DNA of 64,000 nucleotides from Glandiceps talaboti (Eukaryota > Hemichordata > Enteropneusta > Spengelidae), in assembly GCF_964340395.1 (NCBI RefSeq), contig NC_135559.1, positions 3,050,501 to 3,114,500 of the forward strand. The letters run 5' to 3'. The position numbers and the translations under genes are program-made. Shown here one piece after another: positions 44,761 to 49,890 of this stretch (position 1 is the stretch's first letter; every line of letters begins with the position of its first letter). The notes beneath the pieces are model-generated. The model was given only the letters and a program-made list of their open reading frames with translations. It was not told the origin of the DNA and ran no database searches.

Positions 44761-44945
44761 ACTGACCATGCATAATGTGTTTATGCTTGTAAGTGGTGTT
44801 GAACGGGGGAGACACTCCTAAATCTAAAGTAAATCAATCACTCAACGTCCACTGACCATGCGTAATGTGTTTATGCTTGTAAGTGGTGTTGAACGGGGGA
44901 GGCACTCCTAAATCTAATGTAAATCAATCACTCAACTTCCACAAT
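44761..44945. repeat. 90 bp duplication overlapping the end of the PDZ/IL-1-like gene
   Basis: The segment beginning ACTGACCATG at 44761 is repeated at 44851. Each copy contains GTAAGTGGTGTTGAACGGGG and AAATCAATCACTCAAC. The upstream copy runs into the stop codon and the last two codons of the gene, so the other copy carries a duplicate of that coding end. Confidence 0.85.
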
Positions 44946-47900
44946 TTGAAACATAAAACTGTCGTCCTTAGGATCGGTCGTGTTGATAACACTCAGTGAA
45001 TTGCCATTCATACACAAATATAAATCTTCATAAACTGCAGAATTGAATATCACTTTGTCCCTCTGTCCGATTACGTAAAAGACTCGGTTATCCAGTCGTT
45101 GCAATGTTTCGGGATGGCACACTTTAACAGACGATTCTAAGTAGAGTCTTGCAGCTGATGATGATCTTCTGCGACGGTTGTAGTGGCATGCTATGTAGCG
45201 TGACGGGGATTCCCGTTGAGGGCAGAATTCCAGTAATACCGGACGACCCGCTCTACTTCCCTGAATGTCTGAACGGTAGGAATACATCTCGATGTGTCCT
45301 GTAATTTTGAAGAGAAAATGGGGAAATTATATATTATACTACCTGCAAAATGGAAATTTACTAAACTTGGGGACGAGATCAATAGTTCAATGTAGGACAA
45401 AAAACAACAACTAAGTTAGGCCTCAGAAGCTCCCCCACCCGCTTTCTAACTAATTACTAAAGTCAAAATTGAAATTTGTTTCAGACAGCAAATCAATTTC
45501 AAATATGTGTAGTAGTATGTAGTGCTATGAATACAAAGCCAGTGTGTAGTGCTATGAATACAAAGCCAGTATGTAGTAGTATGTAGTACTATGAATACAG
45601 AGCCAATATGTAATAGTATGTAGTACTATGAATACAAAGTCAGTATGTAGTGATGAAAAATAGATCTTTCATTGACACTTTGTTGTATCTTAGTGTCATG
45701 CATTTACTATGGCGAAAATTCTTCCATTTCTCAATATTTGTTTTGAAATAGTTGTATGTAGGGGTACAAAACAGACCCATATTTATTTTAAAAAGAATAA
45801 TCCCGTTTTTGTAAGATGAGAACTACATGTAAAATGGATGACGATGACGGTGACAAACATGGTAGACATGTATGGCATAGCAATGACAAGGATTACAATG
45901 CGCTCATTGTGCGTTATCACCCTATACGAAATGGTTTTCGTTAGAATCAGCCATTTCATATACAGTAGTGAGATTACGCACTGTGACCGGATTATAATTC
46001 TTGTAATACTCTGCAGCATATGGCAGCCATGTTTGTCAGTGTTGGTATCTTTATTTTGTTGTTGTTGTTATTATTATTATTATTATTATTATTATTATTA
46101 TTATTATTATTATTATTATTATTATTATTATTATTATTATTATTATTATTATTATTATTATTGTTGTTGTTGTTGTTGTTGTTGTTGTTGTTGTTGTTAT
46201 TATTACTATTATTATTGTCGTTGTTGGTTTGTTTGTTTGTTTGTTTGTTCACTTTTGTTCTGTCGTAAGCATAACTAACTATATAAAGCCTGAGCTCCCT
46301 GTGGTAGCAGTGATGTACTTACCTTTGTCCAGGTCACCACTCTGAATCGCTGTGCTGACAACATCGCCATCATCACCATGTAATGTTAACATAGCTGGTG
46401 CGGAATTCTGTCCGTGGCTAGTTGTCAGTACAATATTTACTCTTCTCTTATCATAGTATTGTAATACAGGTCCAGAGTAGAATATTGGTTCAAATACGCG
46501 TTGAATCCATGCTGCAGTCAGGGAGAAAACAGCGACAGGGTATGTCATTATCATGCGTTTTGAAGAAAGTAAGAAATTGTTACAGCTATAAAAGGAAAAA
46601 TTCTGACTTATTTCTACCTTTTTCTTTATAACAGTAGGCGTACACTTGTATTGATTACACCGTCTCGACTTTGCACTTGACGTGTGTTTGTAAATTTTGG
46701 GCCCTCCCTTCAACTGTTTATGGGAAAACTTCATTTTTACCCTAATGACTTAAACAGGGTGTCTTGACTTAACTTTGAAATTTTGTAAAGAACCCCTACT
46801 GCACTTGACACACGTTCAGCCATTTTAGGGTTTTCCTTCAAGGGTTTGTGGGAAAACTCATGGTGATGACGTCATGAATACCTCAATCTCTTTGTCCTGA
46901 CAAGAACTGGAATTGCTGGAAAATCGTTAAAATAATGTTCTCGTATTTTTGAAAAAAAAGTTGTTTGGCTCAGCCTGAAAATTTGGTCCTGTTAGTTTTA
47001 AGCATTTCAAAATGGTAACAGCTCATTGTACAATTTTGTACCTAGGATTCCATTTTGAAAAATGTTAACAATAACATGTGACTGTCGTAGAGAATGTTAT
47101 TTGAGCGGCGATTTTAGAAGGACGTGCCTGGTGTTCAAAAACTAGTTGTTCATCCATTTTAGATCATGTTAATTTATGTTAATTTATGCTTTGTATTACA
47201 CATAACAGGTATCTGTAGTCTTCTTACTGAAGTATGATTACTGTCTTTCATGGTACTTGATATGAAACTATCCAGACATAACATAAACGTTTGGATGGCA
47301 TAATTTGTTATATTTATACTAAAACGCAGGGTAAACTCCTACCATGCCCCTAGCTACATGGTACCAATGTCAAAAGAGAATTTTGAATACTAATGAGCAT
47401 GCGTTGATTAAATTAGAACATATGATGTTAATAAATCTACGTACTGAAAAACGCCCACACGATGCTATATTCGACGACATCTCCGAAGTTAGTGTGACAT
47501 ACGACTCTTTCTTTTACTGTGCAGTCGTCCATACGATTAACACATTCACCATGTTCTAAATCACCAGACTGGTTCAGTTTCTCCTTGATATCTTCTGAAT
47601 TGCGTACTGCATTTGAACATTCTACACTTGACTCAGGTATAGGTTTTGGACGAAACACCGTCTTTGTGAATAGATCAAAACAAACAAGCCATAAGACTGA
47701 GAGAAACCTTAAATTTATATAAAACTAACAAATTTCCTCGGAAATAACCTCTTCAAACCTTTGCTGTAGTTTTGTTCACGATTATCATTTAAAATAAATG
47801 AAAAAAATCAGGGGTCACCGTTCAAATTATTGAAAAAGAGGTAATAATGATATCAAACTTAATTAAAGCCATTTTAATATAATCCAATATGGCCGCCGAA

Positions 47901-49890
47901 TCCAATATGGCCACCAAATACCGAGGTTAACTCTATGGGGAAATAAAAGATTGATGATTTCCTTGAAAACAAGATGGTGAACCCCCAGATTTCTTTTGTT
48001 ATGTCAAAAGGACCAGGAACAAGCTTTCAAATGGGAAAGGTTGGAGAGATAGAATTGAAGAACTTTGATTTTCAGGGAAATTTGTCCTCGAGGCTCATTC
48101 TACCTTAAATCAAAATCCCCAGTAGTTTTTGTATTCAATATATAGACACAATGTGAGTAATAGGGCAGCCCATTGTTTTCAAAGAGTACGTATTTTAAAA
48201 TAATCAATTTTAGTTCATGACTTACAAGAACGAGTTCTTCTTTCTTAAAAGTCCTAAAACGCTGTTCCATAGTATCAGTAGGCATTCCAAATAGATCTTT
48301 ACTGTTCATTCTTATTAATTGATCACCAGACCTGTTTGAGGTGGGAATAAATAGAACAGTTACTTCAAGTGGACAGGGTAGTGCATGACGTTAAAATGGC
48401 CATATGGATGAGAATTGGGTATTCGTTTTAAGGTGGGAATACATAGAACAGTTACTTCAAGTGGACAGGGTAGTGCATGACGTTACTAGTAAAGCGGACA
48501 TATCGATGAGAACTGGGTATTCATTTTAGATTTTGGATTTATAAAACAATTTTATCATGCCTTCCTATCTGAAAAATCAATGTGAAACAACACTGACCAA
48601 GTCTGTGTTTGTAACCCAATACATTGCAAAACGATTTTTAAAAACTTGTAAAAGTTTGTTATTGTAGTACAACATTGGCATATTATTAATGTTGTTTCAC
48701 AGGGGCCATCCATATGGCCATGTTAAAGCAACTATACAATGTTGTAATTATCACGATCACCCGTGCCATTATTAGATACGAACGAAGCAAGTAGTGGATT
48801 AATTGAGTATTTCACAGGAATTAGATTTAGTATGAAAAATAAGTGAAACCGAAAAATATTGAGTGAAATTCAGAACAAGCAAATGTACATATCCTGGAGG
48901 ATTTATTTTCAAATACTTTTGTCCAGTTATACACTACACTACCTTGTATCACAGACAAGGTCGAATACAATGCACATGTACAAAATGGCTTGTGATATTG
49001 TCCATATCGTGCTAAACTACTCAGTACACCGCATTTCTATCAGTGTGCAATACATAGCATGGTTTTCAGGCTATCAAATCTATCTACAAATCATCTTTTA
49101 AAAAAAGAATTCTGGTTCATATCTTACTTAATACCCCATTTCTTAAATTGTCCATTTTCTTCCACCTTCACCTCTCTGTTACCTTCGTCGTTTTTCTTCA
49201 ACGACGCTCCCAAATCAAATTCGGTGACGCTTTCAAAACTGGGATGTGGAATGGATAACTTGACTTCTTTTCCTGAATTTTTCTTCCGTAATGGCTCCTG
49301 AAAAAGAGATGTGTGATGGTTAATGTTTTGTCTGTTTGTTTATAAAACGCAAACAAAAAGACTAGATTTTGTACATATCTACGCTATTGTTATTGTTTAC
49401 AGAAAACTTTTATTTTCACAGTGCAAATAAGCTTAACAGCATAAGAAGCGGAAAAGTTGATATCTTGCTAGGATTTTATTTTGGGAAGTATAAAGAAAAT
49501 AAGTAAACTTGTTAAGGTAAGATGAAAATTACTATGATGAAGCCCTAAAAGACTTTCCCCTTCAAATGAACAAAAATTCTCGCATTATTTTGAACTCCAA
49601 GTCTAAAAATTAAAATTTGGCACCAATATGTTCAACGGAATGGAGAAAGGAAAGAAGTATTTGATATTGTAAAACTGCACCCACAATCTTCTGATCCATA
49701 TACAGAGACGTGTTAACCACTATGTCTATGTCATAGATAAAATATAATAATGTTTGTTAAAGTCAGAATTACGGTTGTCCTACGTACGTACCTTGGAATG
49801 TTGACGGGACACTATTTGGTCTTCGTTGGTACTGCATTCATCCAGGCACTGCTGGTCAAACAGTCTCGATAATTCCTCTATTGAATCCAT
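44928..49890 (-). CDS. PDZ domain plus IL-1/IL-18-like beta-trefoil protein, gene A
   Basis: Complete six-exon model: 49890-49792, 49297-49128, 48331-48226, 47661-47445, 46511-46323 and 45298-44928, totalling 1152 nt (383 aa). The start MDSIEELSRLFDQQ has no signal peptide. Residues about 43-127 form a PDZ domain (FDLGASLKK, then VKVEENG, then SGDQLIRMNSKDL at 91-103), split by an intron after K90. A 70-residue acidic linker follows. Residues about 199-383 resemble an IL-1-family trefoil: FNSAVYEDLYLC (345-356) aligns with the IL-1/IL-18 signature, and the end DDSFMFQIVEVE aligns with the IL-18 ending DRSIMFTVQNED. FGF is an alternative trefoil family but fits less well. The donor of exon 4 (TTCA|GTACGT) is weak; other borders are good. 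IL-1 cytokines are also made without a signal peptide. Function is not known; an immune or stress mediator is inferred. A minus-strand AATAAA near 44090 could end the transcript. Confidence 0.82.
46050..46245. repeat. Trinucleotide microsatellite (TTA)n/(GTT)n
   Basis: TTA repeats followed by GTT repeats, in intron 5 of gene A. Confidence 0.95.
47866..48107. repeat. Partial copy of the 675-1107 MITE, reverse orientation
   Basis: Contains AATCCAATATGGCCGCCGAA, the tract ACAAGATGGTGAACCCCCAG and the terminal CATTCTACCTTAA, matching the reverse complement of the left half of the element at 675. It lies in intron 3 of gene A. Confidence 0.7.
48345..48728. repeat. Fold-back MITE, family G, copy 3, with a duplicated left end
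   Basis: The left end ATGGCCATATGGATGAGAAT at about 48396 pairs with CCATCCATATGGCCAT at about 48707. Part of the left end plus flank (GAACAGTTACTTCAAGTGGA and neighbours) is tandemly duplicated with a period near 97 bp. Intron 2 of gene A. Confidence 0.7.

Follow-up and report, generated by a model that had tools for sequence, protein, structure and literature searches.

The closest described counterpart of the genes reported here is nIL-1F, a fish member of the interleukin-1 (IL-1) family. Lumpfish nIL-1F, a protein of 352 amino acids encoded by seven coding exons, reportedly joins an IL-1 family domain to a PDZ domain; its clade is reported from teleosts, coelacanth and ghost shark, the PDZ domain being given in the available excerpt for the lumpfish protein only (PMC7144542). 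Recombinant C-terminal trout nIL-1F inhibits IL-1beta-induced gene expression, and the gene has been called teleost-specific (PMC4929537). A 2022 review describes IL-1 receptors in invertebrates and no IL-1 gene outside vertebrates, with receptors arising before ligands (PMC9020223), and IL-1beta was given an age of some 425 million years in a paper of 2018 (PMC5861070). Here we analyse a stretch of 64,000 nucleotides of the hemichordate Glandiceps talaboti (contig NC_135559.1, positions 3,050,501 to 3,114,500), hereafter the window, in which there probably lie two tandem genes, A and B, from a hemichordate branch of the IL-1 ligand family; they are built like lumpfish nIL-1F and may work by the cytokine mechanism proposed below.

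The likeness lies in a PDZ domain and an IL-1 domain carried by one protein, the hemichordate proteins having 383, 334 and 348-357 amino acids; it is drawn from the published description. Both genes are multi-exon, with seven coding exons in lumpfish against six in gene A, and nIL-1F itself is reported, in the excerpts, from jawed fishes only. The first-pass annotation of this DNA, which rightly took the source to be an invertebrate, had presented the combination as a new architecture and IL-1 cytokines as free of PDZ domains; the lumpfish protein, as excerpted, contradicts the second statement and anticipates the first (PMC7144542). What is new here is the phylum, not the PDZ-IL-1 architecture. 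Among the entries listed in a search of open-licence articles in PMC, none was recognised as describing an IL-1 ligand from an invertebrate, a weak negative, most subscription papers lying outside its scope. Among other cytokines, the FGF family belongs to the beta-trefoil cytokine fold class, and IL-16 is PDZ-derived and not known to have a trefoil; the PDZ of the hemichordate protein is fused to a predicted trefoil. IL-18, IL-33 and IL-1beta are not known to carry a PDZ domain.

Structure of genes A and B

Gene A occupies 49890-44928 on the minus strand. Spliced from the window, its six exons close at 383 codons and a stop, exactly as the first-pass annotation had placed them; all five introns are GT-AG, with phases 0, 2, 0, 1 and 1, and both SGDQLIRMNSKDL and FNSAVYEDLYLC are present.

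49792..49890, minus strand: exon 1, start codon; phase 0 at its end
49128..49297, minus strand: exon 2, PDZ domain, N-terminal half, aligned with Ptychodera flava protein P0001; phase 2 at its end
48226..48331, minus strand: exon 3, PDZ domain, C-terminal half, with SGDQLIRMNSKDL; phase 0 at its end
47445..47661, minus strand: exon 4, linker from the PDZ domain to the trefoil; phase 1 at its end
46323..46511, minus strand: exon 5, first part of the IL-1-like trefoil; 189 nt, phases 1-1
44928..45298, minus strand: exon 6, rest of the trefoil and stop; Pfam IL1 E 0.056, 13.6 bits
45012..45047, minus strand: FNSAVYEDLYLC, at the IL-1 family signature position when aligned to the signature region

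In Pfam, the PDZ domain of gene A is detected with scores short of the curated cut-off (PDZ_2, E 5e-5, 23.9 against 27 bits; PDZ, E 9e-4), and that of its P. flava relative passes it (PDZ_2, E 1.4e-8, 35.3 bits); the PDZ domain first proposed is supported. The residues DLGAS in exon 2 are presumably where the carboxylate-binding loop of the PDZ domain sits. Against NCBIfam, P0001 matches PDZ-bearing families only, mostly proteases.

Gene B, a second gene with the same plan on the same strand, runs from 63530 to 55839 and extends beyond the window, its preceding PDZ exon (residues 3-53) lying just outside it (L009, 353-505). The residues encoded by its window exons all agree (281 of 281) with P0002, the NCBI protein of LOC144442661, which is labelled an uncharacterized Glandiceps talaboti protein and gives a weak unrelated match in NCBIfam. 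Inspection by eye of gene A and P0002 found no obvious signal peptide.

63274..63530, minus strand: C-terminal half of the PDZ domain and linker; NCBI protein match
56994..57179, minus strand: first trefoil exon; 186 nt, phases 1-1
55839..56242, minus strand: last exon, rest of the trefoil, FQSATMPHVYLC signature and stop

The two genes are colinear from the PDZ domain through the trefoil (BLASTP E 2e-11, 21% identity over 297 aligned positions), and three introns are common to them, at columns 119/119 (phase 2), 232/233 (phase 1) and 295/295 (phase 1), the phase-2 intron being the one before exon 3 of gene A.

Relatives and the joining of the two halves

Searched against 5.8 billion proteins, gene A has a single match at E<=1, in P. 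flava (E 2.9e-27; one of 1,792 candidates), and gene B retrieves at E<=10 its own NCBI record alone (one of 186 candidates). A query alignment of gene A, gene B and the P. flava protein brings back the same two proteins (two of 4,333 candidates). These searches require shared five-residue words, so remoter relatives may be missed. The P. flava protein connects the PDZ domain with the first trefoil exon.

Searching the Glandiceps genome with gene B and the IL1 family as queries revealed further copies. Four tandem intronless PDZ-IL-1 copies (L006, L004, L002 and L005) are spaced by about 3.2 kb at 3052280-3062642 of contig C22, with intact open reading frames (ORFs) of 348, 355, 355 and 357 amino acids; all four hold PDZ and trefoil in one frame. 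Their ratios of nonsynonymous to synonymous substitution (dN/dS) range from 0.20 to 0.53 over six pairs, so they are under some constraint; their form suggests an origin from a spliced mRNA. The Pfam scan covered two of them, whose whole ORFs match both domains below the curated cut-offs (L002: PDZ_6 E 3.5e-5, IL1 E 2.6e-4; L005: PDZ_6 E 6.9e-5, IL1 E 1.8e-3). A frame-broken copy lies on contig C5 (L008).

Gene D (L010) lies on contig C10, where the match spans 25945302-25945451; of its IL-1-like trefoil exons, one ends at 1045 and the next occupies 1355-1698. Its trefoil holds an internal glutamine run, a phase-1 intron precedes its last exon (by eye), and a PDZ profile of the hemichordate family detects no PDZ in roughly 9.5 kb of upstream and 9.3 kb of downstream sequence.

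Two other candidates were taken as chance: an IL1-family match on C5 with two internal stops (L011, 23.1 bits), and, on reading the sequence, a possible third gene (23004-23054 of the window; tblastn E 0.11).

Since the four intronless copies hold both halves in one open frame, PDZ and trefoil belong to one transcript. The exon chain of gene A is likewise beyond chance, because the order and introns of gene B, the P. flava protein and the intronless copies all agree with it. We therefore see almost no room for two genes wrongly joined, or for an artefact of the model. The long, repeat-rich introns speak for such an error; against it stand the one-frame copies, NCBI's own model of gene B, which already joins the halves, the joined protein of P. 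flava and the introns common to genes A and B. The first-pass proposal of a single gene is supported.

Some sequence features of the two genes are worth recording. An 85-bp minisatellite fills 57487-61328 in an intron of gene B (45 copies, 97% matches). A 90-bp direct repeat in two copies spans 44761-44942, its second copy reaching the last codons of gene A. Reading through the exon 3 donor of gene A (48190-48226) gives SHELKLIILKY, which resembles QHECELIILRY at the end of the gene B PDZ; it is probably chance or a relic, the spliced form being backed by P. flava.

The C-terminal half compared with IL-1 and FGF

We compared the C-terminal halves with a hidden Markov model (HMM) of ten human IL-1 family sequences. 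Nine of these (without IL-36alpha) were checked as a family against the PDB: of 64 matches at E<=0.001, the 60 listed are all IL-1 family members or constructs of them. Further HMMs represent FGF (seven sequences) and the IL-1beta pro-domain (four). On the IL-1 HMM, gene A scores 12.9 bits (P 3.8e-6) and the gene B trefoil 16.9 bits (P 2.1e-7), values reached by none of 20,000 shuffles in either case; paralogue C scores 17.3 bits (best of 10,000 shuffles, 8.6) and gene D 18.5 bits (best of 10,000, 12.6). With IL-33 left out of the family, human IL-33 scores below both genes A and B; in such leave-out tests the two genes fit less well than IL-18 or IL-1alpha. Leaving out IL-18 lowers gene A to P 3e-4, which agrees with the earlier impression of an IL-18-like protein.

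Profile-to-profile comparison gives the same family-level similarity. With hhalign, the joint profile of genes A and B matches IL-1 at 93.2% (P 3e-7, 151 columns) and FGF at 1.7%, FGF and IL-1 matching each other at 8.3%. The score against IL-1, 48.1, compares with 19.7 for the best of 300 column shuffles, and repeats of the comparison gave 93.8 and 1.0%, 90.9 and 0.8%, and 94.2 and 2.1% for IL-1 and FGF, respectively. Among the 24,736 models of Pfam-A, IL1 is the only match of the trefoil segment of L002 (E 5.7e-5, 23.2 bits) and of the last exon of gene D (E 1.7e-5, 24.9 bits).

Trefoil profiles of genes A and B, and their extensions with C and D, all free of IL-1 sequences, were searched against the whole PDB (177,635 sequences). 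The A and B profile has one match at E<=10, which is IL-18 (E 0.48). Adding two copies of C (profile A8) brings IL-33 to the top (E 0.0012), followed by IL-18 (E 0.023) and again IL-33; its 22 matches are 12 IL-1 family chains, six designed trefoils and four others. With A, B, C and D, matches 1-30 all belong to the IL-1 family (best E 0.0022), and the 41 matches comprise 32 of the IL-1 family, eight of FGF2 and one other. These counts include many variants of one protein, the A8 and A9 profiles include related paralogues, and the sorting of some entries follows their names or general background (EBI-005 as IL-1 family; Symfoil, 6xTyr and similar entries as designed trefoils). The full-length profile of A, B and P. 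flava finds PDZ-bearing chains (best E 2.1e-4). WD-40 matches of gene B alone in the PDB were set aside, no single stretch passing by itself.

Several results weigh against the assignment to IL-1. Every hemichordate sequence falls short of the 25 bits set as the Pfam IL1 cut-off, the gene D exon coming closest with 24.9, and gene B has no Pfam IL1 match in any form tried. The match of gene A is weak (E 0.056-0.11) and is equalled by one to CheB (E 0.059), which we set aside as chance. The IL1 cut-off is an annotation threshold rather than a definition: eight of nine human members match IL1, and the ninth IL33_bt. Taken singly, genes A and B reach 21.1% and 50.3% against IL-1 in hhalign, and the full-length profile has no IL-1 among the 60 of its 114 PDB matches that were listed. 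AlphaFold2 gives a mean confidence (pLDDT) of 37.6 for P0002 with the window exons and 34.3 for the two last exons, too low for a usable model, and the annotated P. flava protein stops early in the trefoil. The strict PROSITE IL-1 pattern (quoted in the excerpt of PMC7144542, and diagnostic rather than defining) matches none of genes A-D, in which Met replaces Thr; gene A also lacks the Pro, and gene D the Phe and Pro. A relaxed form is found in B and C and not in A and D; eight of 20,000 shuffles of B contain it too, and human IL-18, IL-33 and IL-38 also fail it.

The trefoil might be that of FGF or of another family merely resembling IL-1, an alternative to which we give little credence. It draws on gene D, which scores 14.9 bits on the FGF HMM (best of 10,000 shuffles, 11.6) and whose joined trefoil matches in Pfam IL1 (E 2.6e-5) and then FGF (E 0.0072) among others, and on the FGF2 chains among the matches of the D-containing profile (8 of 41) and the designed trefoils among those of A8 (6 of 22). 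Genes A, B and C are nevertheless at noise on the FGF HMM (-0.0, 0.2 and -0.4 bits) and score well on IL-1, and we reject FGF for these three; gene D, less clear, still scores higher on IL-1 than on FGF, and the profile comparison stands at 91-94% for IL-1 against 1-2% for FGF. At the level of sequence, IL-1 thus fits the trefoil better than FGF does, in line with the first-pass reading and with the IL-1 family tops of the PDB searches. The C-terminal domain would accordingly be predicted to adopt an IL-1-type beta-trefoil fold, and genes A and B are very likely IL-1 family homologues that carry a PDZ domain.

Intron phases and likeness to IL-1beta

The introns of IL-1beta have phases II,0,I,I,0, and its trefoil is encoded by the last three exons (PMC4880838, excerpt). 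Those of gene A have phases 0,II,0,I,I, and the three placed introns of gene B II,I,I. In both genes the first trefoil exon is flanked by phase-1 introns, as in IL-1beta. The human IL1B counterpart of this exon has 171 nt and phases 1-1. By hand alignment, the second flanking intron is some five residues away from its human counterpart, a position that appears similar rather than proven identical. The one last exon of genes A and B corresponds to a stretch that vertebrate IL-1beta interrupts with a further phase-0 intron.

The likeness to IL-18, IL-33 and IL-1beta consists of a profile match that covers much of the trefoil domain and of the signature region F-x-S-[AV]...Y-L-C. The N-terminal region shows no significant similarity to the IL-1beta pro-domain by the pro-domain HMM; a FEPI-like patch before the trefoil, considered as a trace of homology, was rejected with scores inside those of shuffles (-0.0, -0.2 and -1.4 bits).

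Proposed mode of action and its alternative

On our proposal, the protein would be synthesised in the cytosol as a leaderless precursor, in which a linker connects an N-terminal PDZ domain to a predicted trefoil at the C-terminus. In place of a pro-domain, the PDZ would tether this precursor to a partner with a fitting C-terminus, until injury, or proteolysis in the linker, frees the trefoil. The freed domain could then act on an IL-1R-like receptor (Ig and TIR domains), either as an agonist or as an antagonist like trout and carp nIL-1F. We put this sequence of tethering, release and receptor binding forward tentatively, at slightly less than an even chance.

Its chief rival is an intracellular PDZ scaffold, in which the IL-1-derived trefoil would bind proteins inside the cell and never be a secreted ligand. 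In its favour, PDZ domains are intracellular as a rule, and neither gene A nor P0002 shows a signal peptide on inspection by eye; leaderless synthesis is, however, also the rule among IL-1 cytokines, and the inhibition of IL-1beta-induced genes by recombinant C-terminal trout nIL-1F (PMC4929537, excerpt) goes against a purely intracellular role. We regard the scaffold as rather unlikely and retain an IL-1-type ligand as the preferred reading.

A possible origin of IL-1 ligands

IL-1 ligands may predate vertebrates. The form in the deuterostome ancestor might have been a PDZ-trefoil fusion, kept by nIL-1F and hemichordates, with the PDZ lost in IL-1beta, IL-18 and IL-33. We put this at slightly less than an even chance, because the PDZ of nIL-1F is reported, in the excerpt, for one fish species only. 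If it is true, the shared run of phases II,0,I,I would imply that the pro-domain exons of IL-1beta stand where the PDZ exons once stood.

A hemichordate IL-1-like ligand would question the order of receptors before ligands, date IL-1 to early deuterostomes and make the PDZ form its likely starting point. The Glandiceps genes would also offer an animal for testing ancestral IL-1 signalling.

Other features of the window

A 79-bp tandem array of 10.2 copies (98%) lies at 29390-30195. By eye, its unit holds an apparent coding ending CCKCGHYDHPEW followed by GTAAGT, that is, a repeated exon end and splice donor. At 30411-30593 on the plus strand there is a PHD-finger exon (PHD E 3.6e-11), near ORFs with long acidic stretches (28158-35954); the region may resemble RSF1. 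Two tandem pyridine nucleotide-disulphide oxidoreductase genes occupy 4337-6781 and 12276-15835 on the minus strand, with Pyr_redox_2 matches at 5839-6156 (E 2e-12) and 14079-14327 (E 2.7e-12), their other exons being placed by eye; they presumably resemble AIFM2/FSP1.

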